Of a DNA stretch of 64,000 nt, positions 29,488-45,431 are shown piece after piece. Source of the DNA: Natranaeroarchaeum aerophilus (GTDB taxonomy: Archaea; Halobacteriota; Halobacteria; Halobacteriales; Natronoarchaeaceae); contig NZ_JAKRVY010000006.1 of NCBI RefSeq assembly GCF_023638055.1, positions 1-64,000 on the forward strand, read 5' to 3'. Position 1 is the stretch's first letter, and every line of letters begins with the position of its first letter. A program made the position numbers and the translations under genes. The notes below the pieces were generated by a model. It was not told the DNA's origin, searched no databases, and saw only the letters and a program-made list of their open reading frames with translations.

Positions 29488-29492
29488 GTGGG

Positions 29493-30581: not shown

Positions 30582-32144
30582 TCAGTCGTCGGCCAGCACG
30601 TCCGGCTCCTCGCCCGGCACAGTCAGGAGCCGATCCATCGCATCGACCATTGCGCTGACCGACGCGGAGGTGATGTCGGTATCGCTTTTTGCGACAGTTA
30701 CCGAGTGGTCGCCCCGGCTCATCTCGACTTCGACCGTGACGACGGCGTCCGTGCCGCCGGTGATCGCATCGACCTCGTAGGAGTCCAGTGAGACGTTTGC
30801 GACCTGGCCGATCGCCTCGCGAACCGCTGTCACGGCGGCATCGACCGGCCCGCTGCCGGTGCCCGAGGCGACGCGTTCCTCGTCGTCGACCCGCAGCCGA
30901 ACACTCGCTGTTGGGATGCCGCCCCCACTCGCGGCAGTGAGATCGAGCACCTCGACGCGGCGTTCCCGGTCGGTCCCCTTGACGTCTTCCGCGATCGCGA
31001 GCAGGTCGGCGTCCGTGACGCGCTTGCCGCGGTCGCCGATCTCCTTGATGCGCTTGACGACCCGGGTAAGCTCCTCGTCGTCGACCTCGACGCCGTGTTC
31101 TTCGAGCGCGGCGCGTGCTCCGGCGCGACCGGTGTGTTTGCCGAGCACGATCCGGCGCTCTCGGCCGACCTTCTCCGGTGGATAGGGCTCGTACATCCGG
31201 TCGTCCTTGAGCGTCCCGTCGGTGTGGATGCCGCTCTCGTGGGTGAAGGCGTTCTCGCCGGTCACCGCCTTGTTCGGCGGGAGCTGGACGCCCGTGGCCT
31301 GTGCGACGGCCTGTCCGAGGCTGTACAGCTGCGTCGTATCAACCGTCTCGATCCCGTAGCTGTGATCGAGCGCGATCGCGACCTCTTCGAGCGCGACGTT
31401 GCCCGCACGTTCGCCCAGCCCGTTGACAGTGCCGTGAACCAGATCCGCGCCAGCCGCGACGCTCGCCAGCGCGTTCGTCAGGCCCATCCCGAGATCGTCG
31501 TGGGTGTGAGCACTGACCGGGCCGTACTCCGCGAGCGTGGAGACGATCTCGTAGGATCGTTCCGGCCCGGCGTGACCCACGGTGTCCGCGTAGCAGACGC
31601 GGGTCGCCCCGGCGTCGAAGGCCGTCGCCATGAGCTCTTCGAGGAATCCGAGATCCGCACGGCTGCCGTCCTCGCCGATCACCTCGGTCCAGAGGCCGTG
31701 ATCGCGCGCGTACTCGACCAGTTCGGCCGTGTCGGCAATCACTTCCTCGCGGGTCGTGTTTACTTTCGTTTCGATGTGGCGATCGCTTCCCGGCACGACG
31801 ATAGTGACGCCGTCGACGTCACAGTCGAGCGCGAGGTCGATATCGTTCTGCACGCCACGGGCGAAGCTGGTGATCGTCGCGTCCAGATCGAGGTCGGTTA
31901 CCTGTTTGATGGTACGGCGCTCGCCCTCGCCGGTGCAGGCGCTACCTGCCTCGATGACGTCGACCTGCGCACGATCCAGCGCTCGGGCGATGTCAGCTTT
32001 CTCGTCGGGCGTCAGCGAGATGCCCGGCGCTTGCTCGCCGTCGCGTAGCGTCGTATCAAGGAGCGATACATCTGTCTCGTCGTCGTACAGCGGATTCGTG
32101 GCGGGGTCGCCGCCGAAGAAGCCGCGCGAATCTCCAGGGTTCAC
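30582..32144 (-). CDS. LeuA/CimA-family synthase (2-isopropylmalate or citramalate synthase)
   Basis: A 520-residue enzyme condensing acetyl-CoA with a 2-oxoacid (pyruvate to citramalate, or 2-oxoisovalerate to isopropylmalate). It has the HMGL-like barrel with LLDTTLRDGEQAPG, the metal ligands in SAHTHDDLGMGLTNAL, and the hinge motif NGLGERAGNV. The subdomain KHTGRAGARAAL is followed by a C-terminal LeuA dimer/allosteric domain (residues about 385-505), which implies feedback inhibition by Ile or Leu. It starts at GTG (MNPGDSRGFFGG), 7 bp after the stop of a 31-codon ORF. No ilv or leuCDB genes follow, which slightly favours CimA over LeuA; a phylogeny is needed to decide. Confidence 0.85.
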   Translation of the reverse strand: MNPGDSRGFFGGDPATNPLYDDETDVSLLDTTLRDGEQAPGISLTPDEKADIARALDRAQVDVIEAGSACTGEGERRTIKQVTDLDLDATITSFARGVQNDIDLALDCDVDGVTIVVPGSDRHIETKVNTTREEVIADTAELVEYARDHGLWTEVIGEDGSRADLGFLEELMATAFDAGATRVCYADTVGHAGPERSYEIVSTLAEYGPVSAHTHDDLGMGLTNALASVAAGADLVHGTVNGLGERAGNVALEEVAIALDHSYGIETVDTTQLYSLGQAVAQATGVQLPPNKAVTGENAFTHESGIHTDGTLKDDRMYEPYPPEKVGRERRIVLGKHTGRAGARAALEEHGVEVDDEELTRVVKRIKEIGDRGKRVTDADLLAIAEDVKGTDRERRVEVLDLTAASGGGIPTASVRLRVDDEERVASGTGSGPVDAAVTAVREAIGQVANVSLDSYEVDAITGGTDAVVTVEVEMSRGDHSVTVAKSDTDITSASVSAMVDAMDRLLTVPGEEPDVLADD

Positions 32145-32151
32145 GTGTTGG

Positions 32152-32247
32152 TCACTCGTCCCCGAGAATTTCGCGCCCAGCCGGGTTGCCCCGACTTCCT
32201 CTATCCTCGGAATCCGACTGAGAGGAGTCCTCTCGTGTCATATCCAT
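32152..32247 (-). CDS. 31-codon leaderless small ORF upstream of leuA/cimA
   Basis: Reading on the minus strand from ATG at 32247, the frame gives MDMTREDSSQSD..., ending NPAGREILGDE and TGA at 32152-32154. It is rich in Ser, Asp, Glu, Arg and Gly and likely disordered. A TATA box sits exactly 23-28 nt before its ATG, the position expected for a leaderless transcript, so this ORF rather than the synthase gene should be the first translated. The synthase GTG follows the stop by 7 bp, which suggests reinitiation or coupling. It does not have runs of Leu/Ile/Val codons, so classical attenuation is not evident. A conserved micro-protein or uORF is possible. Confidence 0.55.
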   Translation of the reverse strand: MDMTREDSSQSDSEDRGSRGNPAGREILGDE

Positions 32248-32269
32248 CGTGATACAAGCGCACACGGCT

Positions 32270-32275
32270 GATAAA
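32270..32275 (-). promoter_or_regulatory. TATA box for leuA/cimA transcript
   Basis: On the minus strand TTTATC occupies -28 to -23 relative to the ATG at 32247. The ThiDN gene in this window has a TATA box at nearly the same spacing, supporting leaderless initiation at the small ORF. Confidence 0.65.
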
Positions 32276-32362
32276 CCTCACGGTTCCACAGCATCCCGTC
32301 GTCCCGCCCCGACATGGTCCCAGCAACGGCGGATACGACTAACTTCGTAAATTGAAGTATTA

Positions 32363-32383
32363 TACTTCGAAAGTTGTAGTATT
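32363..32383 (-). promoter_or_regulatory. 21-bp operator-like element shared with mutL upstream region
   Basis: On the minus strand the bases read AATACTACAA, two variable bases, then TTCGAAGTA. The same element, 19 of 21 identical, occurs on the plus strand at 58053-58073 upstream of mutL. It is an imperfect palindrome (TACTnC.AA..TT.GnAGTA), as expected for a dimeric regulator. Next to it GAAGTA-TTA-TACTTC at 32354-32368 is a perfect palindrome. The distance to the small ORF start is about 115-135 nt, upstream of the TATA box. Confidence 0.5.
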
Positions 32384-32396
32384 GTCCGCTGGGCGA

Positions 32397-32744
32397 TTAT
32401 TCGAGCACTGAGACTCGGTCACCGACGGAGACGTCAGCCGCAGCACCCGCTGGCAACTCGATCACCAGATCAGCCTTCGCTTTCCCCAGGCCAGTCCACG
32501 CCGACAGCGTCTCGACCCGCGTGACCTCGCCACCGGCGATCCAGATGGCGTCAATCGGGAAGGGGACAAAGAGCATATGGAGACTGCGCGAGGCGACGCC
32601 GTCGAACTCGAACACCAGCGCGTAGTCGTCGGGGATCGATCGCCGGAACATGAGTCCCCGGCCTCGTGAGAGAACCCCGGTTGCGCGGTCGACGGTCGAG
32701 GCCAGTACTGCAGAACCGCCCTCGCTCTCGTGGCGTACCCGCAC
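32397..32744 (-). CDS. DUF192 protein
   Basis: A 115-residue protein with the DUF192 beta fold: RGLMFRRSIPDDYALVFEFD, then LHMLFVPFPIDAIWIAGGEV and the C-terminal SVGDRVSVLE. The start is GTG at 32744, 3 bp after the ferredoxin stop, so the two are cotranscribed. The family is widespread and small, without an agreed biochemical role. There is no signal peptide, unlike many bacterial members. Confidence 0.85.
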   Translation of the reverse strand: MRVRHESEGGSAVLASTVDRATGVLSRGRGLMFRRSIPDDYALVFEFDGVASRSLHMLFVPFPIDAIWIAGGEVTRVETLSAWTGLGKAKADLVIELPAGAAADVSVGDRVSVLE

Positions 32745-32747
32745 GGC

Positions 32748-33083
32748 TCAGTCGTCGGCAGCGGCGTCGCCCGCGCCTGCTTCGGCGGCGACGTCCTCGT
32801 CGATGCTCGGCGGGTACTTCCCGCGATCGAGTTTGACGTCCGACTGCGGACGGGCCATGCAGGTCAGCGCGTAGTTCTCGGCCTCGGCCTCTGTAAAACC
32901 TCTGGCAGCGGGCTGGGTTACCTCACCCTCGACGATTTCCGCCGTGCAGGCCAGACACATCCCGACGCGACAGGAGTACTCCTGTGCGATCCCCTCTTCG
33001 AGACAGCGGCTGAGAATCGTCTCCGTCTCCGATACCGTAATCGACTCGTCGCGGCCCACGAACTCGACGGTGTGCTCGGTCAT
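32748..33083 (-). CDS. Plant-type [2Fe-2S] ferredoxin
   Basis: A 111-residue electron carrier. The cluster loop CRVGMCLAC near residues 38-46 plus a distant Cys in YALTCMARP give the Cx4-5CxxC...C pattern of plant-type ferredoxins. The acidic C-terminal tail (IDEDVAAEAGAGDAAADD) is a halophilic adaptation. It lacks the N-terminal acidic insertion of the main haloarchaeal ferredoxin, so it is a shorter paralog. It is followed immediately by the DUF192 gene. Confidence 0.9.
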   Translation of the reverse strand: MTEHTVEFVGRDESITVSETETILSRCLEEGIAQEYSCRVGMCLACTAEIVEGEVTQPAARGFTEAEAENYALTCMARPQSDVKLDRGKYPPSIDEDVAAEAGAGDAAADD

Positions 33084-33130
33084 ACTCCCCTGCTACGAAC
33101 GAACCCGATAAAACTCTTTATTCCCCTGGA

Positions 33131-33982
33131 TCACTCCTCCACGACGATTGTCCCTGTCGCCTCACCCGCGAACGGGATCGATTCGTATTCGTAGGTTCCG
33201 GGAACCGCGAACGTGTGGCTGTACTCGTCACCCGGATCGAGCGAACCGATGAAGTCGTCGTGATAGGCTGCCTCGGCGTCCTCGTAGGAGGCGGAGCCCC
33301 CGGACGCAAAATACGCGGCCCCCTCCGGAACGGAGACGGCTGTGACGGTATGGGCACGAGCAGCAGTGTTCCGCCAGACGACCTCGCGTCCAACCTCGAC
33401 AGTCAGGTGTTCCGGCTCGAACGCCATCGCCTGCATCCCTACGTGAAAGAGCGACACGTCATTCGTGGCGGGCATGTCCGCAACGTACCACTCACCGTCG
33501 GATTCGACGACGAACAGGTAATCGGTCTCCAGTTCGGTCTCGCCGAACACCTCGGTATTGGCCTCGACGTAGACGAGCTGATAGCTATCGACACCGATAT
33601 CCTCCAGATACGTCGGAATGCCTTCCTCCCAGCGGTCGAGTTCTTCGTCCAGCTGGCCGCCCGATTGCCCGGTCCGGAACGACAGGAACTCCTCCAGCGA
33701 GTGCCCCTCGATCGTCTGTAGATTCACAGCCGTTACTTCGCTGTAGCCAACGCCGATCGGGTGGATCCCTACACCCGCCTCCTGTCGAACGCGGTCGATG
33801 TCTCCCCAGTAATTCGCCTCGATCTGGGCCTCATCGTCGTCGACGACCCCGTCGTAAAACCCTTCGACGGCGTTGGTTGCATCCTCCTCGTTGTTGCCGC
33901 CGGTATCGATAGCATCCAGACAGCCGGCCGAGGCCGTCCCGATCGCACCGGCAACTACACTCAAAAGTATTCGTCGTCGCAT
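33131..33982 (-). CDS. Lipoprotein with degenerate cupredoxin domain
   Basis: A 283-residue exported protein. A signal with lipobox (VVAGAIGTASAGC) leads into a 160-residue alpha/beta domain of unknown type and then a C-terminal halocyanin/plastocyanin-like beta sandwich (about residues 180-283). In halocyanins copper is held by one His on an early loop and by Cys-His-Met near the end (YxCxPHxxxGM). Here the first His survives (RAHTVTA). The terminal loop reads TYEYESIPFAGEATGTIVVEE, with Ser for Cys, Phe for His and no Met. The copper site is therefore very probably lost. The fold may now bind protein or serve as a structural domain. Confidence 0.8.
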   Translation of the reverse strand: MRRRILLSVVAGAIGTASAGCLDAIDTGGNNEEDATNAVEGFYDGVVDDDEAQIEANYWGDIDRVRQEAGVGIHPIGVGYSEVTAVNLQTIEGHSLEEFLSFRTGQSGGQLDEELDRWEEGIPTYLEDIGVDSYQLVYVEANTEVFGETELETDYLFVVESDGEWYVADMPATNDVSLFHVGMQAMAFEPEHLTVEVGREVVWRNTAARAHTVTAVSVPEGAAYFASGGSASYEDAEAAYHDDFIGSLDPGDEYSHTFAVPGTYEYESIPFAGEATGTIVVEE

Positions 33983-34082
33983 AGGATCTGTACGCGTGGC
34001 GTGTATTAAAATATTGATATTTCAATCACTGGAGAGCCGGGCCGTACAACACGGACTGGCCCGCCGACGGGGTTGGAGCCCA

Positions 34083-34472
34083 CTACGTGACATCGAGGGC
34101 GAGCCGCTCCGCCCACTCCTCGGGCACCGGTCGGGGATCGCCATCCTCGTCAAGAATCACCTGGGTCGTCCGGGCTGTCGCCGCGCGTTCGCCATCGGCA
34201 CGGATCTCGTAGTCCAGTGTCACACTCGTCGTGCCGAACTCGGCGACGCGCACGGCGACCGTGACCTCGTGGTCGACGAGGATGGGCGACTCGTAATCGA
34301 CTTCGACGTGGGCGATCACCGTTGAGACGTCACGATCACCGATCACATCCCGGAAGAACTTGATCCGCGCCGATTCGAGATACGTGACATACACCGCGTT
34401 GTTGACGTGGCCGTAAGTGTCGAAATCGTTGTACCGTTTTTCGATCGTCGTCGTGTACTCGTAGTCGCTCAC
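34083..34472 (-). CDS. Acyl-CoA thioesterase (hotdog fold)
   Basis: A 129-residue 4HBT-type thioesterase. I placed the start at GTG 34472 (SDYEYTTTIEKRYNDFDTYG), because the longer frame extends without family character into the divergent reductase gene. Motifs are RYNDFDTYGHVNNAVYVTYLE, with the catalytic Asp in the YNDFD turn and the HVNNAVY helix, followed by FRDVIG and VIAHVEVDYESPI. It would hydrolyse an acyl-CoA. It is divergent from the geranylgeranyl reductase gene with about 105 bp between starts. Confidence 0.85.
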   Translation of the reverse strand: MSDYEYTTTIEKRYNDFDTYGHVNNAVYVTYLESARIKFFRDVIGDRDVSTVIAHVEVDYESPILVDHEVTVAVRVAEFGTTSVTLDYEIRADGERAATARTTQVILDEDGDPRPVPEEWAERLALDVT

Positions 34473-34577
34473 GTCTCCGGAGAGGCCAGTTTGGAACAAA
34501 TAGGTTGTCGTCGACGGCACCGGACGAGTGTATCCGACAAGTAAAACGTTTTGACCGTGGGGATACGACCCGTCTTT

Positions 34578-35948
34578 ATGACCACATCGGAGTACGACGT
34601 CGTTGTCGTCGGCGCGGGGACTTCGGGCTGTTACGCTGCTGCGACCGCCGCAAACGCCGGACTCGACGTCGTCATCGTCGACCGCAAAGATAGCGAGGAA
34701 GCGGGACACATCGCCTGCGGTGACGCGCTGAAAGGGGCATCAAACTTCCCCGACTCGATTCCGCGCTCGAAAATCGAGCCGGCCTTCACCAACACCGAAG
34801 TCGACCACGGCCGCTTCGAGATTCCACAGGAAGACGAGGTGCTGGAGATCCCGGTGCCGGGGGAGCTCGCCGTGATCGACCGCTGGGAGTTCGGTCGTCT
34901 GCTTATCGAGGGCGCGGAAGAAGCCGGTGCCGACCTTCACTACGACACCGTCGTCAAGGATGTTAATCAGGATGATGAGGGTCGTGTGACGGGCATCGAG
35001 ACGGCCCGGAAGGGAGAGCCACGAACCTACGAGGCCGAGGTCGTCGTCGACGCCGCGGGCGCGCTGTCGATACTCCAGGACTTCGCCGAACTCGACGACG
35101 CGACGTTCGATACGAACGTCAGATACTCGCAGTTCTGTTCGGCCTACCGTGAGATCGTCCACGTTCAGGAACCCGTCGAGTGGGACGACGCGCTGGTGTT
35201 CAAGCCGACCGAGCGTGCCGCGGGCTATCTCTGGTACTTCCCGCGCACCGATACCGAGATCAACGTCGGACTGGGCTTCCAGATGAACGAGGAACCGATG
35301 ACGCTGGTCGAGGATCTCAAAGACGATCTGGAGAACCGCGAGGAGTTCGAGGGCGCAGAAGTCGAGGACAAACTCGGCGCATCGCTCCCAACCCGACGTC
35401 CTTACGACTCCGCGGTTGCGCCGGGCTACGTCGCGGTCGGCGATGCCGCCGCCCACGTTAATCCGACGACTGGTGGGGGGATCGCCGGTGCGGCCTACGC
35501 CGGCCAGTACGCCGCCGAAACCATCGTCGACGCGCTCTCGAACGGCGGCCCGACCGAGGACGCCCTGTGGGAGTACAACGAGCGCGTGATGGATCACTTC
35601 GGCGGACGCTACGCCGCACTCGACGTCTACAACATCCACATCACGGGCGGCGAACTCGACGAGCTAACGAGTCTGCTGGCGGCCCTACCGGGACAACAGA
35701 TCGCCGAATCGCTGTACTCCGGATCGACGTCGATCCCGCTGTCCGTGAAGCTCAAGACCGCCTACAGGAGCTTTGGTCACTGGGGAAGCATCTACAAACT
35801 CTACCAGACCAAAGGACTTGCCGACAAGTTACTGGAACATTACGATGATTACCCATCCTCACCCGAGGGCTTCGACGCCTGGCAGGGTCGTCGTGACGAA
35901 CTGATGGACGAGGTATACGAGACGACCGGCGCAGAGCCAAAGTACTGA
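34578..35948 (+). CDS. Geranylgeranyl reductase-family FAD oxidoreductase
   Basis: A 456-residue flavoprotein from the ATG at 34578 (MTTSEYDVVVVGAGTSGC). The FAD Rossmann motif is VVGAGTSGCYAAATAA. A CGDALKG motif near residue 50 carries the conserved Cys of this family, and GDAAAHVNPTTGGGIAGAAYAG is the second FAD motif. Members saturate the geranylgeranyl chains of archaeal ether lipids (digeranylgeranylglycerophospholipid reductase) or of quinones. Haloarchaea carry several paralogs, so the precise substrate is open. A T-rich stretch just after the stop (35953-35960) may terminate transcription. Confidence 0.85.
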   Translation: MTTSEYDVVVVGAGTSGCYAAATAANAGLDVVIVDRKDSEEAGHIACGDALKGASNFPDSIPRSKIEPAFTNTEVDHGRFEIPQEDEVLEIPVPGELAVIDRWEFGRLLIEGAEEAGADLHYDTVVKDVNQDDEGRVTGIETARKGEPRTYEAEVVVDAAGALSILQDFAELDDATFDTNVRYSQFCSAYREIVHVQEPVEWDDALVFKPTERAAGYLWYFPRTDTEINVGLGFQMNEEPMTLVEDLKDDLENREEFEGAEVEDKLGASLPTRRPYDSAVAPGYVAVGDAAAHVNPTTGGGIAGAAYAGQYAAETIVDALSNGGPTEDALWEYNERVMDHFGGRYAALDVYNIHITGGELDELTSLLAALPGQQIAESLYSGSTSIPLSVKLKTAYRSFGHWGSIYKLYQTKGLADKLLEHYDDYPSSPEGFDAWQGRRDELMDEVYETTGAEPKY

Positions 35949-36204
35949 CCGTCGTTTTTCGAGACCTGTCTCCGCTGCCGACTCGTGGTCCGCAATCGCT
36001 CGTTGTAGAAGGTATTCCGTTCCCAGAGGAGCAAAAATACCACGTCTATTGTCTGATCGAATCGTCTTTCCGATATACAGTGTCGCTATATTTCCAAAAG
36101 AAGAATATTGGCAGTGTTCCAATTCTATATCGCAGCATATGATTTATTAGCTACGTATGGACCAACGCATGGTGCTTATGCACGCGCAGGCGATACGTCT
36201 CCCT

Positions 36205-37113
36205 ATGGTACAGAACGTCGCCGGGATCCTCCCGGAGCTCGACCCCGAGGACTTCTATCTCCTGTCGGGAGTCGAACAGGGAATGCGGTTTTCCGAGTGG
36301 GTATCGCGCGAGAAGCTCCCGGACTTTGCGGATCTCACTCCCGAGGAGGTCGAGTACCGACTTGATCGCTGTCTCGACCGGGGATTGATCGAACGGAAGA
36401 CGATCCAGTACGAGGGGTACACGCTCACGTTCGAGGGCTACGATGCGCTGGCGTTGCGGACGTTCGCCGAGCGAGAGACGATCACCGGATTCGGGGCGTC
36501 GCTCGGCGTCGGAAAGGAAAGCGACGTGTTCGAGGTTCAGTCCTACGAGCCAATGGCACTGAAGTTCCACCGTGAGGGGTATACAAACTTCCGTGAGGTG
36601 ATGAAAGAACGTGACTACACCTCGGATCGTCAGCACGTCTCCTGGCTCTACACCGCACGGAAGGCAGCGGAACGCGAGTACGAGGCGCTCGAAACCCTGT
36701 ATCCGGATGTCTCCGTGCCTCGCCCAATCGATCACAACCGCCACGCAATCGTGATGGAGAAGATCGACGGTGTCGAGCTCTCGCGCACAGGGCTGGAAGA
36801 CAAACAGGTACTCCCAGTTCTGGATCTCGTCCTCCGCGAGATGCAGACGGCCTACCGCGAGGGGTGGGTTCATGCGGACATGAGCGAGTACAACGTCTTC
36901 GTCGGCACTGACGGAATCACAATCTTCGACTGGCCTCAGGCGATCCCGGCCGACCACGAGAACGCCGAGGAGTTCCTCGAACGGGATGTCGACAACATCG
37001 TGAATTACTTCCGCCGCAAGTATCCCCAGCACGTCGAGGAGTACGACGTGCCGGCGTTGGCCGATTCAATCGAGAATAACGAGTTCGACCGGGTCGAAAC
37101 TCACACGTTCTGA
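36205..37113 (+). CDS. rio2: RIO2-family serine/threonine kinase
   Basis: A 302-residue atypical kinase/ATPase of small-subunit ribosome maturation. I chose ATG at 36205 (MVQNVAGILPELDPEDF), the usual family start; upstream ATGs at 36157 and 36172 are in frame. The Rio2-specific winged helix covers residues 1-90 and the kinase domain 90-280. A nucleotide loop GASLGVGKESDVF and catalytic VHADMSEYNVFV with the key Asp are visible, with metal-binding IFDWPQ. All functional residues are present. A hairpin downstream at 37219-37244 may end the transcript. Confidence 0.93.
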   Translation: MVQNVAGILPELDPEDFYLLSGVEQGMRFSEWVSREKLPDFADLTPEEVEYRLDRCLDRGLIERKTIQYEGYTLTFEGYDALALRTFAERETITGFGASLGVGKESDVFEVQSYEPMALKFHREGYTNFREVMKERDYTSDRQHVSWLYTARKAAEREYEALETLYPDVSVPRPIDHNRHAIVMEKIDGVELSRTGLEDKQVLPVLDLVLREMQTAYREGWVHADMSEYNVFVGTDGITIFDWPQAIPADHENAEEFLERDVDNIVNYFRRKYPQHVEEYDVPALADSIENNEFDRVETHTF

Positions 37114-37218
37114 CGTCGTTCGCCGCACTACGGGCAGGAATCGACGCCCCTCCTGGAGTTTGACCGTCCATCGTAAGGGTGGCAACTATCCACCAGTAAA
37201 CTATATGGAGCTATATCA

Positions 37219-37244
37219 AAACTATCTGGCTGGTGCGATAGTTT
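37219..37244 (+). terminator. Inverted repeat downstream of rio2
   Basis: AAACTATC at 37219-37226 and GATAGTTT at 37237-37244 form a perfect 8-bp stem with a 10-nt loop, about 105 bp after the rio2 stop. The rest of 37114-37366 holds no gene I can support. The hairpin could be a transcript end or a remnant boundary. Confidence 0.35.
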
Positions 37245-37366
37245 GAAAGACAGCCCGTCGCGATTGCTCTGTTGGCACTAGTTGGGAACAACCTCAAGAG
37301 ACGCAGTAAGGTCTCCTCCGTCAGGAGATACAGCTATGCTTCGAAGACAGCCAGGGGACCACGTTG

Positions 37367-37588
37367 CTATACGGAACGTGGTCGAGCGCTACCCCCGCTC
37401 TGGCATTCAGTTACCTGCGTCTCGACGAAATTCTTCCCCCTGTACAGGTCGACTTGCTCGGACATCCACGGAAACGAATTGTCAGTGCCGTACTGTTCAA
37501 ATAAGTCGAGTTGTTCAGGGTGCCAGTCGGTGATGTGTTCGACGTACTCGGCGAACTGCCTGGCACTCGTGCCAAGAATGTAGACGGA
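37367..37588 (-). pseudogene. nrdB: Fragment of class I ribonucleotide reductase small subunit (NrdB C-terminus)
   Basis: Between an in-frame stop at 37589-37591 and TAG at 37367-37369 the minus strand reads about 73 codons without a start Met appropriate to a full gene. The translation contains QFAEYVEHITDWH, then FPWMSEQVDLYRGKNFVETQ and VTECQSGG. The order FPWMSE..DL..KNF.ET.VTE.Q.GG is the C-terminal signature of NrdB R2 proteins, where the tail docks into NrdA. The essential tail Tyr of VTEYQ is Cys here, and the metal-binding body is missing. It is GC-richer than the nrdA gene that follows. It appears to be the last remnant of a native nrdB lost after the intact low-GC nrdAB genes arrived next door. 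Confidence 0.7.
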
Positions 37589-37616
37589 CTATTCTATCAT
37601 ACCGGCCGATGGGTGA

Positions 37617-39305
37617 TCAACTCTCACAGGCCTTGCATTCGAGAATATTTCGGCTGAATTTCTGTGCAGCATTCACGCTGTTCTGATAGTAGAGACTTTT
37701 CACTCCTTTCTTCCAGGCCTCTATGTAGAGTTGATTGATCTCTTTGACGCTCACTTCACTTGGATCAATCGAGATGTTCAGGCTCTGTGCCTGATCTATG
37801 TGTTTCTGTCTCTGCGCTGCCTGGTTAATGATTGCCATCTGTGGTATCTCAGCGAATGTCTTGAAGACTTCTTTTTGTTCGTCCGTCAGACAATCGAGAT
37901 GCTGCACGCTACCATCTTTATTCGCGATACTGTCCCAGACTTCTCTCTTGTCTTTACCTTGCCTTTTCAGTATTGCTTGAAGGAATCTGTTCTTTTGAGT
38001 CGATTTGAGTTTTGCTCCATCTCTCACGAAGTAGTTCGACTTTAGCGGTTCAATACTCGGACTGACCTGGCCCAGAATGACACTGCTCGATTTCGTCGGA
38101 GCCACACTCATCGTCGTCGTGTTGCGCCTGCCATATCCCTCAAGTACCTCTGGTTCACCGAACTGATCGGCAAGCTCTTTGCTCGCCTCGTAACTTTTCT
38201 CTCTGATCGTCCGGAATATCTCTTCGTTTTTCTGCATTGCCTCCATGCTGTCGAAAGGGATCATGTTGCTCTGGAGGTAACTGTGCCAACCGAGGACGCC
38301 GATTCCTATTGCTCTGTGTCTTTTTGCAAACCGCACAGCCCGTTCCATGAACTGTGTCCCTTCTGCTTTCTGGATGAATTCCTCCATCACGGCATCAAGG
38401 AAGCGCGTCAGAGTTTCAACTGCATCCGTGTCCTTCCACTCGTCGTAGTGGAGAGCATTCATACTTGAGAGACAGCAGACGAAGCTCTCATCCGGTGTGG
38501 CAGGTAGTGCTATCTCGGTACACAGGTTGGATGCGTTTATCTCGTAGTTCTTGTCTTTGTAGACCTGTGGCTTCCCCTCATTCATGTTGCCTCTAAAAAT
38601 AATATAGGGGACGCCGATATTGATTCGTGTCTCGATGATCTTTGCCCACGTCTCTCTCTTTTCTTCATCACCATCGATCATCTCCTGGAACCATTCATCA
38701 CCGATGATGACACCGTAGAAAATATCCTGTATCGGGTCACCCTCGGTCTTGATGTTGAGCCATTCTTCGAGATCATCATGTTCAACATCGATATACCCTG
38801 CAAACTGACCTCTTCGAGTTTCACCCTGACTCACCACATTGATAGCAGTATCGAACAGTTCTGTGAAACTATAACTCCCATTGCTCTTTCCGTTGTTCGT
38901 TATTGGGCTGCCTCTTGGCCGTATTTCACCGAAGTATCCGCTTGTGCCTCCGCCCAACTTGGTCATTTCACCGACTTCGGCATGCGTGTAGAGAATACTC
39001 TCCATATCGTCTTCCATGTAGCTGCCGAAGCAGCTGATAGGGAGACCTCTGTCCAGTCCAAAGTTCGCCCAGATCGGGCTTGCGAGACTGTAGAACCCTC
39101 TACTCATGTAGTCGTAGAACCTGTCTGCGAAGCCCTCTTCATCCAAGATCTCTTCAGCGTTTTCTGCTATCTGTCTGACTCTTTCCTTCGGTTCAACACC
39201 TTCAACCAGGTATCCTTCTCTGAGGAACTCTTTGCTGTCCTCATTCAACCAGTAGAACGGTTCTTTGTGCTGTTCTCTGACCTGTGTGAGCTCTGTTTGC
39301 GCCAT
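37617..39305 (-). CDS. nrdA: Class I ribonucleotide reductase large subunit
   Basis: A 562-residue catalytic subunit that makes deoxyribonucleoside diphosphates. Catalytic residues are all visible: Cys92 (SCFGSY), Asn260-Cys262-Glu264 (NLCTEI, the thiyl radical site), the second active-site Cys at 277/278, the Tyr-Tyr radical relay at 539-540 (LYYQNS), and the redox pair CKAC at 557-560. The regulatory N-terminal ATP cone is absent, and the protein is much shorter than E. coli NrdA (about 760). This compact form is typical of viral and some bacterial enzymes. GC content is far lower than neighbours (sampled lines 42-47 percent) and AGA codons are frequent, unlike haloarchaeal housekeeping genes. 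It follows nrdB by 2 bp. Horizontal, probably viral, origin is inferred. Confidence 0.92.
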   Translation of the reverse strand: MAQTELTQVREQHKEPFYWLNEDSKEFLREGYLVEGVEPKERVRQIAENAEEILDEEGFADRFYDYMSRGFYSLASPIWANFGLDRGLPISCFGSYMEDDMESILYTHAEVGEMTKLGGGTSGYFGEIRPRGSPITNNGKSNGSYSFTELFDTAINVVSQGETRRGQFAGYIDVEHDDLEEWLNIKTEGDPIQDIFYGVIIGDEWFQEMIDGDEEKRETWAKIIETRINIGVPYIIFRGNMNEGKPQVYKDKNYEINASNLCTEIALPATPDESFVCCLSSMNALHYDEWKDTDAVETLTRFLDAVMEEFIQKAEGTQFMERAVRFAKRHRAIGIGVLGWHSYLQSNMIPFDSMEAMQKNEEIFRTIREKSYEASKELADQFGEPEVLEGYGRRNTTTMSVAPTKSSSVILGQVSPSIEPLKSNYFVRDGAKLKSTQKNRFLQAILKRQGKDKREVWDSIANKDGSVQHLDCLTDEQKEVFKTFAEIPQMAIINQAAQRQKHIDQAQSLNISIDPSEVSVKEINQLYIEAWKKGVKSLYYQNSVNAAQKFSRNILECKACES

Positions 39306-39307
39306 TG

Positions 39308-40318
39308 TCAGAACATCTCCTCGGCTGTAACGCTCTGCGTGTGTTTGTTGTAGGTGGTCGATCGCTTGCTGAAGAAGTCGTTGTCCTTCGTCATCATAAT
39401 ATCCTCATCGAACCAGCGAGTTTCGTCAAGTAGGTCATCATTTGTCTCGAACATTGGATCTACTCCGACATTCTCCAGACTCTGGTTGAATCGGTCTTTC
39501 AAAAACTCGTCTATCCACTCTCTGGGAAGGAATTCCAGTTCTCCCTCACTGAATATCCAATCCAGTATATCCATCTCCGCCTCGTAGGCCTGCTTACAGG
39601 CCTCTTGGATATCCGCCTCGAATTCATCATCGAACAGCTCTGGGTTCTCTTCTCTGATCGTATCTACCAGCTCCACTCCGAACAGCCCGTGGATCTGTTC
39701 TTCTTTACTGGTTGCTTCGACAGCGTTGGATATTCCCTTGAATTTCTTCTCGTACTTGTCGAAGCTTGTCATTATCAGGAACTGACTGAACAGTGAGACA
39801 TGCTCGACGAACGTACTGAACAGAAGGATGCTCATCACATATTCTTCTTTGTCGTCACTGTGAGTACTTCCCAGACATTCATCGAGATACTCTATTCTGT
39901 TTTTTACAGCCGGCACTGCAGTCACCTGCTCGAAATCGTCTGTAATCCCTAACACATCGAGCAGGTGACTGTAAGCGTCCATGTGTCGCACTTCACTCTC
40001 TGCAAAGGTCATGCCGACACTGCCTATTTCTGCTTTGGGCATCTCTTCGTAGATATCTGACCAGAATGTCTTTACCTGCACCTCGATCTGTGCGATAGCC
40101 AACATCGTCCGTTTGATGACGGTCTTCTCGGCACGAGTTGTATTGACCTTGAAATCTTGAACGTCCCCTGAAAAGTTGAATTCCGTGTGAACCCAGTAGC
40201 TGTTCCGTATCGCATCCTTGTAGTCGAGGAAATCGGTGTACTCATACGGTTTTAGCTGTGTTCGTTCCGAGAAAATGTCGGTCTCCGTATCTCCGCCTGT
40301 GGTTTTGTTTTCAGTCAT
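39308..40318 (-). CDS. nrdB: Class I ribonucleotide reductase small subunit
   Basis: A 336-residue R2 protein from the ATG at 40318 (MTENKTTGGD); a GTG six bases upstream is an alternative. It generates and holds the radical needed by NrdA. Di-iron ligands can be placed at Glu79, Glu109, His112, Glu172, Glu207 and His210. The radical Tyr is at 116 (EVRHMDAY), so it is of the tyrosyl-radical type rather than the Tyr-less class Ic. The low GC matches nrdA, with which it forms an operon. The C-terminal tail (TTYNKHTQSVTAEEMF) differs completely from the VTEYQ-type tail of the neighbouring fragment, so the two small subunits come from different lineages. Confidence 0.92.
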   Translation of the reverse strand: MTENKTTGGDTETDIFSERTQLKPYEYTDFLDYKDAIRNSYWVHTEFNFSGDVQDFKVNTTRAEKTVIKRTMLAIAQIEVQVKTFWSDIYEEMPKAEIGSVGMTFAESEVRHMDAYSHLLDVLGITDDFEQVTAVPAVKNRIEYLDECLGSTHSDDKEEYVMSILLFSTFVEHVSLFSQFLIMTSFDKYEKKFKGISNAVEATSKEEQIHGLFGVELVDTIREENPELFDDEFEADIQEACKQAYEAEMDILDWIFSEGELEFLPREWIDEFLKDRFNQSLENVGVDPMFETNDDLLDETRWFDEDIMMTKDNDFFSKRSTTYNKHTQSVTAEEMF

Positions 40319-40440
40319 TGTCACGTACCCGGAGGAATCGTCCTCTGCAGGTTGGCTTCTGTCCCCGTCGTTGGTTGGTTCGGTGCGTTCGAATGCACCT
40401 GTGTCGCTTTCTGTACGTCTGTTTATGATCTATGCTCGTC

Positions 40441-40457
40441 CGGTCAAGGATTGACCG
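40441..40457. promoter_or_regulatory. Palindrome upstream of nrdB, candidate operator
   Basis: CGGTCAA-GGA-TTGACCG is a perfect 7-bp inverted repeat with a 3-bp spacer, about 120 bp before the nrdB start and 30 bp after the nrdR stop. It could be an operator for nrdAB or the terminator of nrdR. It does not match the bacterial NrdR box (ACA..AT.T.GT) well. Confidence 0.35.
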
Positions 40458-40486
40458 AACATCTGCTTGATCTACGTGTGTTTGTA

Positions 40487-40975
40487 TCATTGTGGTTCGT
40501 CTGGGGCTTCGAAGTCGTCAAGTTCTGAATCCAGGACTGCATCAAGTTCTCTCAGGAATTCCTGCGGCTCGGAGAATGTTTTATAAACAGAGACAAATCG
40601 AATGTAAGCGACCTTATCGAGCGCACGGAGGTTCTCAGAGACGAGTTCGCCGATGAGACTCGAAGAGACGATACGTGCCTCTCGGTCTTGTAGTTCGCTC
40701 TCGATATCGTCGACGAGAGAAGTCACTGTTGTCTCGGTCACATCACGCTTCTCAACGGCTCGCTCAATCCCTGCGCGGAGTTTCTGCCGGTCGAACGATT
40801 CGATGGTTCCGCCGCGTTTTTTCACCTGGAGGGACTCCCACTCCGGACGTTCGTACGTCGTAAAGCGGAACGAACAGCGTTGACACTCGCGGCGCCGTCT
40901 GACGGAGGTTCTGTCGGCACTGGTCCCTGTATCGATGACGCGTGTTTGCTCGTTCCCGCAGTCCGGGCAGTCCAT
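40487..40975 (-). CDS. nrdR: NrdR-type transcriptional repressor of RNR genes
   Basis: A 162-residue regulator from the ATG at 40975 (MDCPDCGNEQTRVID). It has an N-terminal zinc ribbon (Cys3, Cys6, Cys31, Cys34), then an ATP-cone domain (KKRGGTIESFDRQKLRAGIERAV..., about residues 50-140) that senses ATP/dATP. NrdR represses ribonucleotide reductase operons when dATP is high. It lies directly upstream of nrdBA in the same orientation. The adjacent NrdA lacks an ATP cone, so NrdR would supply the only visible dATP sensing at this locus. Its GC content is intermediate between the nrdAB genes and the rest. Confidence 0.92.
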   Translation of the reverse strand: MDCPDCGNEQTRVIDTGTSADRTSVRRRRECQRCSFRFTTYERPEWESLQVKKRGGTIESFDRQKLRAGIERAVEKRDVTETTVTSLVDDIESELQDREARIVSSSLIGELVSENLRALDKVAYIRFVSVYKTFSEPQEFLRELDAVLDSELDDFEAPDEPQ

Positions 40976-40984
40976 AGTTGTCAC

Positions 40985-41342
40985 TAATTAATCCTCCAGG
41001 CTCTTAACCCCATATGTGGGGGCTCTCTATTTTAGCCGCAATATCTGGTGGTGGTGACTATCACATAAAACTTTCCTAATGAGATTGGTATAATACAACT
41101 AAACTTGTTTAGTGACGTGTGGGTAGTTGGGATCATATACATCGAGTAACCCAGTCACAACTACTGCATCTGAGCTAGCCACCAGACATGAGAACGGTTT
41201 CATTCTCCGTGACTATTACCGGCAGCCTGTACGCCCTCACACGTCGAGAAGTTGGCCGGACACACCGGTCAGTGAAGGATAAATGAGTGTGGGTTCCGTG
41301 CCGTCTCCACAAAAAAGAGCGGTTTCGAAACCGGATGACCGC
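40985..41342. other. Intergenic region upstream of nrdR
   Basis: About 360 bp between nrdR and the end of the PTS operon with no gene I can support. It is AT-rich in the middle (41040-41110) and contains the palindrome at 41098-41113. It should hold the nrdR promoter and the 3' end of the PTS transcript. Confidence 0.5.
41098..41113. promoter_or_regulatory. 16-bp palindrome upstream of nrdR, candidate NrdR-type operator
   Basis: ACTAAAC-TT-GTTTAGT is a perfect inverted repeat of 7 bp arms, 123-138 nt upstream of the nrdR start. NrdR boxes are also 16-bp AT-rich palindromes, so autoregulation is possible, though the bases differ from the bacterial consensus and only one copy is seen. Confidence 0.4.
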
Positions 41343-41837
41343 TCAGGAGAAGATGCTCTTGAGCTTGCCGAGTAGCCCGCCGCTTTTCTCGCGGTCCGAC
41401 GAGTCATCGACGGCTGTCTGGTCAGACTCCGACGTTTCCGGGGTTGGCTCCTCGTGGTCTTCGGTGTCCGGGTCCTCGGAGTCTTCGGCAGTCGACTCGT
41501 CGATCTGTTCCTCGGTCTCGCCGCCTATGTCCCCACCGGCTTTCTCGATTGCCTCGTCGATCAGGCCGTCGGCATCGTTTACCGCGCCTTTGATATTGGA
41601 CTTGACGAGGGGTTTCCCCTCGAAGCGATCCTGGCTGACGGACGTGTCCGCTGCGATGATCACTGCGTCGGCTGCCTCGATGGCCTCTGCCGATAGCTCG
41701 TTTTCGGTCCCCATCGCACCCTGTACCTCGACGTCGATCTCGTGACCGCGCTTCGTTGCGGTGTTTTCCAGGTTCTCTGCACCCATCTGGCTGTGCGCGA
41801 TACCGGTCGGACAGGCTGTGACTGCTACGAATTTCAT
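41343..41837 (-). CDS. ptfB: PTS fructose-specific EIIB with acidic C-terminal extension
   Basis: A 164-residue protein. Residues 1-102 are a normal fructose-type EIIB with phosphocysteine in TACPTGIAHS (Cys9), which passes phosphate to incoming fructose at EIIC. After it comes an unusual acidic, Ser/Thr-rich linker of about 45 residues, ending in a short amphipathic basic segment GGLLGKLKSIFS. That tail could tether the soluble EIIB to the membrane near EIIC. It is the last gene of the five-gene haloarchaeal ptf operon, overlapping ptsI by 4 bp. Confidence 0.92.
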   Translation of the reverse strand: MKFVAVTACPTGIAHSQMGAENLENTATKRGHEIDVEVQGAMGTENELSAEAIEAADAVIIAADTSVSQDRFEGKPLVKSNIKGAVNDADGLIDEAIEKAGGDIGGETEEQIDESTAEDSEDPDTEDHEEPTPETSESDQTAVDDSSDREKSGGLLGKLKSIFS

Positions 41838-43522
41838 GATGTATCAGTTAGTAGTTCACGTATTTCGGAGATAGTACTGGCGCTCACTGCCCGTTCTGCG
41901 AGCTCCCGAGCCGCTTGCGTATCAGTTTCCGCAACCTTCGCTTTGACCTCCGGGATCGTCACTGCACTCATGCTGAGCTCGTCGAGTCCCAGCCCGACGA
42001 GTAGTTCCGTTGCCGTGGGATCTCCCGCCATTTCGCCACACATCCCGATCCACGTATCGTTGTCGTGAGCGGCGTCGACGCTCCGGTCGATCGCTCGTAA
42101 CACGGCGGGGTGTAGCGGATCGTGCAGATGGGCCACGGCGTCGTTCTCGCGCGAGGCGGCCATGACATACTGTGCGAGGTCGTTCGTCCCGATGCTGAAG
42201 AAGTCGACTCGTTCGGCGAGTTCATCCGCCATCAGTACCGCACCTGGAGTCTCGATCATCACCCCGAGCTCCGGTCGCTCGTACTCGATATCGTCGGCCG
42301 ACAGTGACTCGGCAGCGGCATCGACGGCGTCAAGCGCACCATCGAGTTCGTCGACGGTCGAGACCAGGGGAAACATCACCGACAACCGGCCGTCTCCCTC
42401 TGCAGCCGCACGCAAGAGTGCACGAAGCTGGGTCTCGAACAGATTGCTGTCGTCCTCCAGCGAGCGTCGGATTCCACGATGGCCAAGGAACGGGTTCTCC
42501 TCGTCTTCGGCATCGAGATACGGGATCGGCTTGTCGCCGCCGACATCGAGGGTCCGAACCACGACGCGTCCTTCCGGGAAGGCTTCGAGCGCCTCCGCGT
42601 AGGATTCGAACTGCTCGTCTTCGTCTGGCGGCTGCTCCCGGTCGAGAAACAGGAACTCGGTTCGGTAGAGGCCGATCCCGTCCGCGCCCTGTTCGACGGC
42701 CCCGTCGAGTTCGGCGGTCGTCCCGAGGTTTGCAGCGACCTCGATTTCGACGCCATCTGCAGTCTCGACGGGCTCCGTGCGGATCTCGACGTCTCGTCCG
42801 GCAGTGACTCGCTTGCGAGTCTCCTCGTCCGGATCGACGATGACGTCATCGTTCGTGGCGTCTACTGCGACGTCTGCACCCTCATCGATCTCCAGCAGGT
42901 CCTCGCCGACGCCGACGACGGCCGGAATCCCGAGCGACCGCGCGAAGATTGCGGCGTGGGAGGTTCGTCCACCGGTTGCGGTTGCGAACCCTGCCACGCG
43001 GTCGGGATCGAGCTGTGCTGTATCGCTCGGCGTGAGCCGTTCTGCGAGCAGCACGGTCCCTTCGGGGAGTGTAGCCAGATCCATCCGCTCGCCGCCGGAG
43101 AGAATCCGGAGCAGACGGTCGCGGATATCTCGCATGTCGTCCGCTCGTTCTGCCATCATCCCCTCCATCCCCTCGAACTGCTCGATAGCACTACCGAATG
43201 CACGGGCGACACCCGCCTCTGCGGCCGCGCCGTCGTCGATCGCCGCTTCGACGCCGTCGGTGATCTGTGGATCGTCGAGGAACTGAAGGTGTGCGTCGAA
43301 GACTGCGGCTTCCTCCTCGCCGACGCGTTCTGCCGTCTGTTCGCGCTCGGTTTCGAGTTCCTCGCGTGCCTGCTCCTGTGCGTCCGCGAACCGTTTCAGT
43401 TCGGCGTCGGGCTCACCGGCCTCGATCGATTCCGGGTCCGGGCGCTCGTCGGGACGGTACCACCGCGCCTGGCCGAGCCCGGAGAGTGGCGTGACGCCGA
43501 CGCCTGGAAGTGTTTTACTCAT
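41834..43522 (-). CDS. ptsI: PTS enzyme I (PEP-protein phosphotransferase)
   Basis: A 562-residue enzyme from the ATG at 43522 (MSKTLPGVGVTPLSGLGQARW). It takes phosphate from PEP and passes it to HPr. The phospho-His loop GGRTSHAAIFARSLGIPAVVG is near residue 187. The PEP-binding barrel shows GLYRTEFLFLDREQPPDEDEQ and the C-terminal FFSIGTNDLAQYVMAASREN and MCGEMAGDP motifs. An upstream frame would run through the HPr gene and is not used. It overlaps ptsH by 8 bp. Confidence 0.95.
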   Translation of the reverse strand: MSKTLPGVGVTPLSGLGQARWYRPDERPDPESIEAGEPDAELKRFADAQEQAREELETEREQTAERVGEEEAAVFDAHLQFLDDPQITDGVEAAIDDGAAAEAGVARAFGSAIEQFEGMEGMMAERADDMRDIRDRLLRILSGGERMDLATLPEGTVLLAERLTPSDTAQLDPDRVAGFATATGGRTSHAAIFARSLGIPAVVGVGEDLLEIDEGADVAVDATNDDVIVDPDEETRKRVTAGRDVEIRTEPVETADGVEIEVAANLGTTAELDGAVEQGADGIGLYRTEFLFLDREQPPDEDEQFESYAEALEAFPEGRVVVRTLDVGGDKPIPYLDAEDEENPFLGHRGIRRSLEDDSNLFETQLRALLRAAAEGDGRLSVMFPLVSTVDELDGALDAVDAAAESLSADDIEYERPELGVMIETPGAVLMADELAERVDFFSIGTNDLAQYVMAASRENDAVAHLHDPLHPAVLRAIDRSVDAAHDNDTWIGMCGEMAGDPTATELLVGLGLDELSMSAVTIPEVKAKVAETDTQAARELAERAVSASTISEIRELLTDTS

Positions 43523-43787
43523 ACTCGGATTCCGGTGTTGTGAGTACCTTCGCAACCGCCTCGATCGCGTCTTCTTCGTCCGGACCATCCGCCGTGAGGA
43601 GAACTTCGTCGCCGGACTTTGCACCCAGTCCGGTGACGGCGAGCATACTCGCCGCGTTGACGGCGTCGCCCCCCTCTGGCTTGACGGTGATTTCGCTGTC
43701 GTACTCGTTTGCCGTTTCGACGAACTTCGAGGCCGGGCGGGCGTGAAGGCCGTCCTCGGGAACGATTGTGACGGTGCGTTCGATCAT
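43515..43787 (-). CDS. ptsH: PTS phosphocarrier HPr
   Basis: A 90-residue carrier with the phosphorylation site DGLHARPASKFVETA (His15). The later helix LAVTGLGAKSGDEVLLTADG matches HPr; the regulatory Ser46 of Gram-positive proteins appears as Ala-Ser-Met (NAASMLAV), but no HPr kinase gene is near. It joins EI and EIIA in the operon, with an ATGA overlap on ptfA and an overlap with ptsI. Confidence 0.93.
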   Translation of the reverse strand: MIERTVTIVPEDGLHARPASKFVETANEYDSEITVKPEGGDAVNAASMLAVTGLGAKSGDEVLLTADGPDEEDAIEAVAKVLTTPESEYE

Positions 43788-44251
43788 TTGTTGATCGCCT
43801 CCAGAATGATCTCTTCGACACGCTCTGGGGATTCTGCCTCGTGGAGAGCGTCACGGTTCTCCTCATGCATCAGTGATCGGGAGAGCGAACTGAGCATCGA
43901 GAGGTGTTCTTCACCACCCTCCTCGGGCACGAGGAGCATGAAGATCAGCGTGGCGGGCTCGTCGTCCATCGCATCGAAGTCGATGCCGTCATCGACTCGA
44001 GTGAACGCGATCGTTGGAGACTCGACGCCTGCGCTTTTTGCATGGGGGATACCGATACCCATGCCGACACCGGTCGTTGCATCCTCCTCACGTGCCAGAA
44101 GATCCTCCAGTGCCTGTTCTCGATCCGTGACTCGCCCGGCATCAACGGCCAGATCGAGCAGGAATTCGATACACGGCTCTTTGATAGTCGGTGCACCGTC
44201 CAGGGCGATCAGATCAGTCGTCAACGGTTTGTGGCCACCTTCAGTTGTCAT
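43784..44251 (-). CDS. ptfA: PTS fructose-type EIIA
   Basis: A 155-residue EIIA of the fructose/mannitol/Ntr family. The active-site His is in GMGIGIPHAKSAGV (about residue 71). It accepts phosphate from HPr and passes it to EIIB. The gene lies 40 bp after ptfC and overlaps ptsH by 4 bp. Confidence 0.92.
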   Translation of the reverse strand: MTTEGGHKPLTTDLIALDGAPTIKEPCIEFLLDLAVDAGRVTDREQALEDLLAREEDATTGVGMGIGIPHAKSAGVESPTIAFTRVDDGIDFDAMDDEPATLIFMLLVPEEGGEEHLSMLSSLSRSLMHEENRDALHEAESPERVEEIILEAINK

Positions 44252-44291
44252 AGTTTGTCTTCGGGTTGGGTAATAAAAGACGTTAGCGTGA

Positions 44292-45431
44292 TCAGTCTGC
44301 AGTTGCTTCGACGGAGTCGACAGCGGCCTGGTCTGGCTTGAGCAGCGTGACCATCGCAGCGGTCACAACAGTACCCAGCACGATCGCACCGAGGAAGCCA
44401 AGCACGTTCTCGGCCAGCACGACCACGAAGATGCCGCCGTGCGGTGCAGGCATACCGACGCCGAGGGTCAGCGCGGTCGCTGCTGCCGTGGCGCTACCGA
44501 CCATGATGCTCGGGATCACGCGAAGCGGATCAGCAGCGGCGTAGGGAATCGCCCCTTCGGTGATGAACGAGAGGCCCATCGGGATCGCGGCGATAGCGTT
44601 CTCGCGCATCTCGTCGGGGTATTTGTGCGGGAACGCGAGGTTCGATACTGCCAGTCCGAGCGGCGGGGTCATCCCCGCGATCATCACTGCAGCCATCGGA
44701 CCAGTAATACCGTCTGCGACCAGTGCGACGCCGAAGACGTAGGCAACCTTGTTGACCGGGCCACCCATGTCGAAGGCCATCATCGCCCCGAGGATGACGC
44801 CCAGCAATGCGGCGTTAGCACCCTGCATTCCATCGAGCGTCGACGTCAGCGCGTCGTCGACGATGGCAATCGGGACGCCGAGCCCGAAGACAACCAGCGG
44901 CGCAAGCAACGCCACTGTTAGCACGGGAATGACCAGAATCGGCATCATCGGCTTCAGCATCGACGGAACGGACCAACTTTTCATCCAGCGAGCAACGTAT
45001 CCCGCTAGCAGACCGGCGGCGATCGCACCGAGGAAGCCCGCAGTTGCACCGTCGGCGGTAAAGCCAACAGTCTCACCGGCAGCCTCGACGATGTGTGGCT
45101 GCTGGATCGCGTAGGCAAGGATAAAACCGGGTGCCAGACCGGGTTTATCAGCGATCGCGTACGCAATGTACGCGCCCAGAATTGGGATCATGATCTCCAG
45201 ACCGAGGACGCCGATTTCCCCGAGATACCAGCCCAGCGACCCCGTTTCCTCAAAAAGGGTCTCGGTATCGCCGGCGGTAAACGGCAGCTCGGCGACCATA
45301 AACCCGACTGCAAGGAAGATACCGCCGATAGTTACGAACGGTATCATAAAAGAGACCCCGGTCATGAGGTCTTCTTTTACTTTTGTTACGTGTGATCGAA
45401 GTGCGCTTTCTGCATCGTCTTTTGTGCTCAT
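44292..45431 (-). CDS. ptfC: PTS fructose-specific EIIC permease
   Basis: A 379-residue membrane permease with about nine to ten helices. The EIIC fructose signature appears in GAYIAYAIADKPGLAPGFILA and in AIPMGLSFITEGAIPYAAADPLRVIPS, the substrate-binding GITEGAIPF-like loop. It imports fructose while it is phosphorylated by EIIB. It is the first gene of the ptfC-ptfA-ptsH-ptsI-ptfB operon, the same order as in Haloferax volcanii. Unlike that species, no glpR, pfkB or fba gene is directly attached here, so control and fructose-1-phosphate metabolism must be encoded elsewhere. Confidence 0.93.
   Translation of the reverse strand: MSTKDDAESALRSHVTKVKEDLMTGVSFMIPFVTIGGIFLAVGFMVAELPFTAGDTETLFEETGSLGWYLGEIGVLGLEIMIPILGAYIAYAIADKPGLAPGFILAYAIQQPHIVEAAGETVGFTADGATAGFLGAIAAGLLAGYVARWMKSWSVPSMLKPMMPILVIPVLTVALLAPLVVFGLGVPIAIVDDALTSTLDGMQGANAALLGVILGAMMAFDMGGPVNKVAYVFGVALVADGITGPMAAVMIAGMTPPLGLAVSNLAFPHKYPDEMRENAIAAIPMGLSFITEGAIPYAAADPLRVIPSIMVGSATAAATALTLGVGMPAPHGGIFVVVLAENVLGFLGAIVLGTVVTAAMVTLLKPDQAAVDSVEATAD

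Follow-up and report, generated by a model that had tools for sequence, protein, structure and literature searches.

The window analysed here, 64,000 nucleotides of Natranaeroarchaeum aerophilus (contig NZ_JAKRVY010000006.1, positions 1 to 64,000), carries a ribonucleotide reductase (RNR) operon, nrdR-nrdB-nrdA, in which the remains of an RNR of another type lie between nrdR and nrdB and again after nrdA. We consider it highly probable that the operon is a chimera that has spread horizontally, first made by a phage-type replacement in an ancestor and then carried as transposon cargo. In the first step of the history that we propose, a phage-type nrdB-nrdA pair replaced everything from nrdA codon ~25-29 to nrdB codon ~190 in an ancestral haloarchaeon with a subclass Ic nrdR-nrdA-nrdB operon; the repressor gene nrdR and its promoter stayed in front, and the start of nrdA and the tail of nrdB were left behind as dead remnants. 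The second step is seen in relatives and would extend to the window: placed between the transposase gene and the left end of a DDE transposon, the chimera became its cargo and would have spread among genera, onto plasmids and into the window chromosome, next to a motif downstream of the RIO2 kinase gene. In the third, the window element has lost nearly all of the transposase and the right end, and so is stuck.

The minus strand 3′ of nrdA reads ...QFAEYVEHITDWHPEQLDLFEQYGTDNSFPWMSEQVDLYRGKNFVETQVTECQSGG, and the fragment found there was taken in an earlier, sequence-only reading of the same DNA for the C-terminal remnant of an nrdB of another type. Homology searches bear this out. From 37579 to 37381 on the minus strand it reads RQFAEYVEHITDWHPEQLDLFEQYGTDNSFPWMSEQVDLYRGKNFVETQVTECQSGG, which matches the C-terminus of haloarchaeal NrdB proteins of the other type at 62-64% over 64 residues (tblastn E ~1e-18, well beyond chance, and down to 1e-38 for the scar in relatives), with homology starting near codon 190 by an estimate from which the upstream extension of the query open reading frame (ORF) was removed. 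These other NrdB proteins are ~22% identical to the intact NrdB of the window and read EAVHTDTF where the latter reads EVRHMDAY; phenylalanine in place of the radical tyrosine is the signature of subclass Ic (Lundin et al. 2010, PMC3019208). About a dozen species, from no fewer than eight genera, carry this scar downstream of the same nrdA. Carriers include Halomicrobium katesii (L064), Halorubrum amylolyticum (L065), H. halophilum (L075), Halonotius pteroides (L070), Halobellus (L073), Halovenus salina (L092), Halorutilus salinus (L058) and a Haloquadratum metagenome-assembled genome (MAG; L062), as well as the genomes G162, G102, G194, G312, G249 and G137. When copies from several genera are aligned, they have a common sequence after the nrdA stop, one common frameshift and an identical junction with the nrdB homology. 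The remnant is thus not, as the sequence-only reading had it, what is left of this genome's native nrdB.

Pairwise ratios of nonsynonymous to synonymous substitution (dN/dS) among seven copies of the scar are mostly 0.8-1.1 (range 0.5-1.6), whereas nrdA (0.02-0.06) and nrdB (0.045-0.10) of the window, compared with five relatives, are under purifying selection. Because the ratio of the scar is near 1 against 0.02-0.10 for the intact genes, its decay is neutral, and the 3′ piece is a neutral scar travelling along with a working enzyme. The alternative that both fragments are functional rather than scars, whether as a small peptide or as a selected 3′ untranslated region or terminator, could draw on the retention of the 3′ fragment in many species and on the conserved hairpin after it. 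We give it almost no credence in view of the common frameshift, the stops in several copies, the near-neutral dN/dS (the three grounds on which a functional peptide was rejected for the 3′ fragment) and large deletions in the copies of the window, L058, L258 and L271. The hairpin, an inverted repeat kept in scar-bearing cassettes, may terminate transcription. Separately, the decayed nrdB tail of L068, L264 and L270 contains an additional insertion of ~1.2-1.4 kb.

The sequence-only reading missed a second fragment, between nrdR and nrdB, and also that nrdR is part of the unit. Searches with whole proteins (tblastn) found no remnants of Ic nrdA, and the 5′ scar became visible only after the nrdR-nrdA junction of intact Ic operons had been read. 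In most of these the nrdA ATG overlaps the nrdR stop (ATGA), and the start reads (M)SQQTTTTDDIRSILDRARTG, MSQQTTTTDDIRSILDRARTG and similar. The nrdR-nrdB spacer of the cassette has the same ATGA overlap and the same frame, giving (M)IQTHVDQADVRSILDRTSID, MIQTHVDQADVRSILDRTSIDHKQ in the window and (M)SQQSTTTPDSRSILDRARTDIETS, MSQQSTTTPDSRSILDRARTDIETS in L258, and a hidden Markov model (HMM) of the Ic-NrdA N-terminus places the window scar at the top of 1729 six-frame segments (E 0.008; runner-up 0.21). It is from the frame and register of the two scars that the limits of the replacement given above follow. By sequence comparison, the 5′ scar marks where the DISPLACEMENT happened, inside the nrdR-nrdA-nrdB (Ic) operon of an ancestor. 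Non-orthologous displacement, as the sequence-only reading proposed, did occur, and an nrdB was displaced; what was replaced was the subclass Ic nrdAB of an ancestor, and the event was not caught in the act in this genome, the scar being common to many genera.

Comparison with intact Ic loci is consistent with this origin. NrdR was found in 57 of 372 genomes in a wider search, and of 28 new NrdR loci that were read, nrdR precedes Ic nrdA in 13 and phage-type nrdB in 15; in the NrdR tree the cassette and Ic-operon proteins intermingle, with moderate supports. The upstream region of nrdR in related chimeras is homologous to that of Ic operons from ~-136 to -85 relative to nrdR. The G312 chimera shares nrdR, the nrdA start and the last ~108 bases of nrdB (79-89%) with intact Ic loci of other genera, and with several of them the upstream gene as well. 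That of G249, 93% identical to G312, has its front part in common with intact Ic loci, and the transposon left end was detected in neither. These two chimeras still have the surroundings of the old operon and may lie at the original site. Five NrdR-bearing cassettes (L060, L087, L088, L091 and L147) have no 5′ scar, so other nrdR fusions have occurred.

Could the displacement nevertheless have taken place in situ, with a viral RNR overwriting the window's own ancestral nrdAB at the RIO2 site? The remnant does adjoin viral-type genes, and three of the eight other genomes of the family hold class Ic nrdAB somewhere. We judge this very improbable, since a dozen other species have the identical scar and junction, the Ic operon of the same-family genome G003 is on a different contig, and the same-genus genome G001 has no nrd genes here. 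G001 is collinear with the window from 28957 to 37223, with smaller gaps, after which the match resumes at 45463; nrd and phosphotransferase system (PTS) genes are both missing from it at the site. In G003 and G005, of the same family, no nrd gene lies between RIO2 and the PTS block. Homology of the window to at least eight other cassettes stops exactly at 37233, inside the 558-residue transposase ORF, and homology to ~20 begins at 41162-41172. These borders and the three genomes together mean that nothing was displaced at the RIO2 site, which from synteny is a new insertion downstream of RIO2. The search for other RNRs likewise found no intact second nrdB in the genome, which has one NrdB, one class I NrdA and one class II NrdJ (contig C1). 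NrdJ-type large subunits occur in nearly all relatives, and NrdJ is probably the resident essential RNR.

In relatives the order of the element is left end, nrdR-nrdB-nrdA-scar, transposase and right end. The transposase gene follows the scar, intact or broken, in L064, L065, L068, L070, L073, L075, L143 and L259, and the intact gene with the right end is present in L065, L070, L143 and others. It encodes a 558-residue DDE transposase (PF01609) with a weak ISH3 match (NF033541, 99-104 bits; cut-off 225). All of the 30 transposase loci compared have a right end (GTAGTCTCAACTTCC) 178-180 bp after the gene. A simple insertion sequence with the left end beside the transposase was rejected: the left-end motif is never close upstream in these loci, its two matches both being >900 bp off. 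The right end is followed by a new left end (AGTTGAGACTGG-N-CTCAATGCAT), 25-29 bp from the right-end start, or at some sites by the motif TATAGCG-N2-ATA-N3-TTTATA, usually 31 bp after it; the nrd element of G162 terminates in a right end and the motif (L317). Target duplications of 7-8 bp occur in L311, L313, L315, L316, L319 and L322 (for example CGGTCGCG in L322 and L313). The motif TATAGC-N3-AT-N4-TTTA is found downstream of RIO2 in all eight same-genus and same-family genomes (L130-L137), and the transposons use it as a target; a similar motif also follows nrdB in L354. Of these parts the window retains the motif, the left end and ~16 transposase codons; its copy is a decayed derivative of the cargo transposon.

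Across the transposon family, 1.4-9.4 kb of cargo lies between left end and transposase, and its content varies: a DtxR-type repressor accompanies zinc-uptake ABC genes, an AsnC-type regulator TrkA/TrkH, and a TrmB regulator SMR efflux. We think it likely, with somewhat less assurance than for the history of the window operon, that a family of cargo transposons not described before is common to haloarchaea and moves complete regulator-plus-operon modules (NrdR with RNR, a DtxR-type repressor with zinc/manganese uptake, TrmB with efflux, an AsnC-type regulator with potassium uptake), stacks in tandem beside a conserved chromosomal motif, and has spread, besides other cargo, a phage-type RNR that had already displaced the cellular RNR in its own operon, leaving datable scars. 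In loci L303-L322, for example L303:3287-14064 (reverse-complemented), we observed tandem arrays with common transposase and ends and differing regulator-plus-operon modules, and one 4.58-kb array unit (TrmB regulator, SMR efflux, FAD oxidoreductase) is nearly unchanged in four genomes.

A different vehicle would be homologous recombination on plasmids, with nrdR and the dead nrdB tail as homology arms and the transposase as a late bystander insertion. Six haloarchaeal plasmids carry most of the nrd cassette, the nrdR of the G265 cassette has 89.5% DNA identity to the nrdR of an Ic operon from a different family, and the intermingled NrdR tree and the chimeras of G312 and G249 without detected transposon ends could be read in the same way. 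We consider this account unlikely because ~20 species with differing contexts have an identical starting point of the left end, because the transposase and right end have a fixed arrangement that is common to transposons with other cargo, and because the window site has no Ic operon that could serve as partner.

The sequence-only reading also suggested a viral donor, and the database matches and phylogeny with haloviruses agree with it. Close NrdB relatives (73-80%) are encoded on six IMG/VR halovirus contigs; those examined have GC of 37-54% and, nearby, genes for tape-measure protein, DNA polymerase, dCTP deaminase, thymidylate kinase and thymidylate synthase. Relatives are also present on more than 550 further viral stretches (53-80% for the best 80) and in 503 phage records, every one below 60%, and the closest bacterial plasmid relatives are from Thermus (~44-47%). 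In a tree rooted with Thermus, the haloarchaeal chromosomal copies form one group (97/97) within a halophile clade that otherwise consists of viruses and nanohaloarchaea; the Salinibacter group falls outside, and the MAG copy L093 pairs with a virus. Halophage AAJ-2005 was not included in the trees, and a search for NrdR in Salicola phage SCTP-2 gave no match, which is uninformative. On this topology, a tailed virus of the hypersaline biota would be the most likely donor of nrdBA. The window insertion is not a provirus: its flanks (RIO2, a GGR-family gene and the PTS operon) hold no virus structural or replication genes.

Several observations weigh against the history as we have drawn it. The HMM match of the 5′ scar is weak by itself over the window and becomes convincing by its place, its frame and its relatives. 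Scars are scattered on the NrdB tree, with clades that have them and clades that do not, and L143 has a 3′ end like that of another clade; together with the nrdR of G265, this indicates that cassettes have recombined, so that one common origin for all the scars, though likely, is not proven. The viral direction rests on a topology with long bacterial and outgroup branches and falls short of proof. No matching target duplication accompanies the nrd elements, because each right end is directly joined to the end of another element. An intact transposase and a right end are missing from the window copy, whose possible target duplication agrees at five of eight bases, and its genome yields no strong transposase match (E<=1e-100). 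Given the missing parts and the imperfect duplication, we can only infer that transposition brought the cassette into this genome.

The acquired enzyme appears to be functional. NrdA is 562 residues long and matches the NrdE-prime model TIGR02510 over residues 7-562 (916 bits against a cut-off of 602); the domain search found no ATP-cone, in agreement with the sequence-only reading. NrdB has 338 residues (PF00268, 183 bits), and in the alignment its radical tyrosine is present (E111-H114-Y118). We suggest that the two form an O2-dependent class I RNR with a tyrosine cofactor, which would work beside the resident class II NrdJ, and that NrdR would now control an RNR without a dATP-sensing ATP-cone of its own. 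The compositional contrast noted earlier stands, at values slightly less extreme than the 42-47% against 65% GC then given: nrdA has 48.1%, nrdB 47.3% and nrdR 54.8%, compared with 57-64% for RIO2, the GGR-family gene and the PTS genes. The frequent use of AGA is also confirmed (17 of 29 arginine codons in nrdA and 3 of 11 in nrdB, 0-1 in neighbours). The nrdA of L090 and L097 has an interruption of ~1.1 kb, an intron or intein, comparable with the case reported in Salinibacter ruber. The resident NrdJ (G000:C1:501629-504538, L002) matches its 523-position model over ~970 codons of a 1469-residue frame and probably contains an intein. The PTS operon (IIB, EI, HPr, IIA, IIC) at 41343-45431 adjoins RIO2 in G003 and G005 but not in same-genus G001.

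Table 1. Features of the RNR cassette and its insertion site in the window
Feature	Coordinates	Strand	Basis
RIO2 kinase, host gene beside insertion	36157..37113	+	PF01163/PF09202; collinear with G001 up to 37223
Target (att-like) motif TATAGCTCCATATAGTTTA, downstream of RIO2	37197..37215	-	similar motif in relatives and after right ends
Transposase gene start, ~16 codons, truncated	37233..37281	-	homology to at least 8 cassettes ends at 37233
Inverted repeat GACCACGTT-N9-AACGTGGTC, possible terminator	37357..37383	-	sequence and alignment; kept in scar-bearing cassettes
3′ scar, decayed C-terminal part of subclass Ic nrdB	37381..37579	-	tblastn E ~1e-18; same scar elsewhere, neutral decay
Phage-type nrdA (NrdE-prime), large subunit without ATP-cone	37617..39305	-	TIGR02510, 916 bits; dN/dS 0.02-0.06
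Phage-type nrdB, class I RNR small subunit	39308..40324	-	PF00268; alignment; dN/dS 0.045-0.10
5′ scar, first ~24 codons of subclass Ic nrdA (MIQTHVDQADVRSILDRTSIDHKQ)	40419..40490	-	ATG overlaps nrdR stop; HMM best match
nrdR, RNR transcriptional repressor (Zn-ribbon and ATP-cone)	40487..40984	-	TIGR00244, 162 bits (cut-off 124.65); PF22811 and PF03477
nrdR upstream/promoter region	40985..41133	-	conserved among cassettes
Transposon left end (CAGTAGTTGTGACTGGGTTACTCGATGTATATG)	41134..41166	-	one mismatch from family left-end motif; cassette homology border

Transfer of class I RNR into haloarchaea has been published. Lundin et al. (2010, PMC3019208) grouped the haloarchaeal nrdR-nrdB-nrdA RNRs of Halomicrobium mukohataei, Halorubrum lacusprofundi and Natronomonas pharaonis plasmid PL131 with Halophage AAJ-2005 and Salinibacter ruber and inferred transfer from halophilic bacteria; they described the subclass Ic nrdAB of haloarchaea as a bacterial import, with nrdR-nrdA-nrdB in Halogeometricum, Halorhabdus and Natrialba. 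The window has the gene order, enzyme type, radical tyrosine and patchy distribution among halophiles of the former group and likewise clusters with halovirus and Salinibacter sequences, and the plasmid copies of N. pharaonis and H. mukohataei align with 90-98% of the window cassette length at 81-82%. To that account we add the two scars, the replacement inside the operon and the transposon vehicle; a search of its text found transposons, remnants and pseudogenes nowhere mentioned. The Ic operons are the source of nrdR with its promoter region and of the two scars, which consist of their first ~24 codons and their last codons, whereas the catalytic genes of the window are of an unrelated type, as the identity of the two NrdB proteins and the tyrosine in place of phenylalanine indicate, and its short NrdA is unlike the ~850-residue Ic protein with its N-terminal extension. 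In NrdA length, lack of an ATP-cone and nrdB-nrdA order, the window RNR instead resembles the NrdE-prime or class Ia RNRs of phages (TIGR02510; Staphylococcus and Sporosarcina phages; IMG/VR), with 54-60% identity to these and 73-80% to putative haloviruses, but it stands under nrdR in a cellular chromosome with no virus genes around it. The transposon is similar to IS4/ISH3-type elements in its DDE transposase of 558 residues, short inverted ends and target duplications of 7-8 bp, and differs from them in scoring below the ISH3 cut-off, in having the transposase at the right end only, and in its cargo and tandem stacking. In the papers searched we found no report of the double scar or of the transposon family, although such absence is no proof of novelty.

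Gene displacement is as a rule deduced from phylogenies. In this case the old operon has left its two ends, still in frame, which allows the event to be located with a precision of a few codons, and the scar lets the product of the replacement be traced through its later hosts. In an essential pathway, a cell thus took over an enzyme of viral type and retained its own repressor. Haloarchaea are known for heavy gene exchange, and the transposon family described here may be a main route by which they share regulated metabolic modules.

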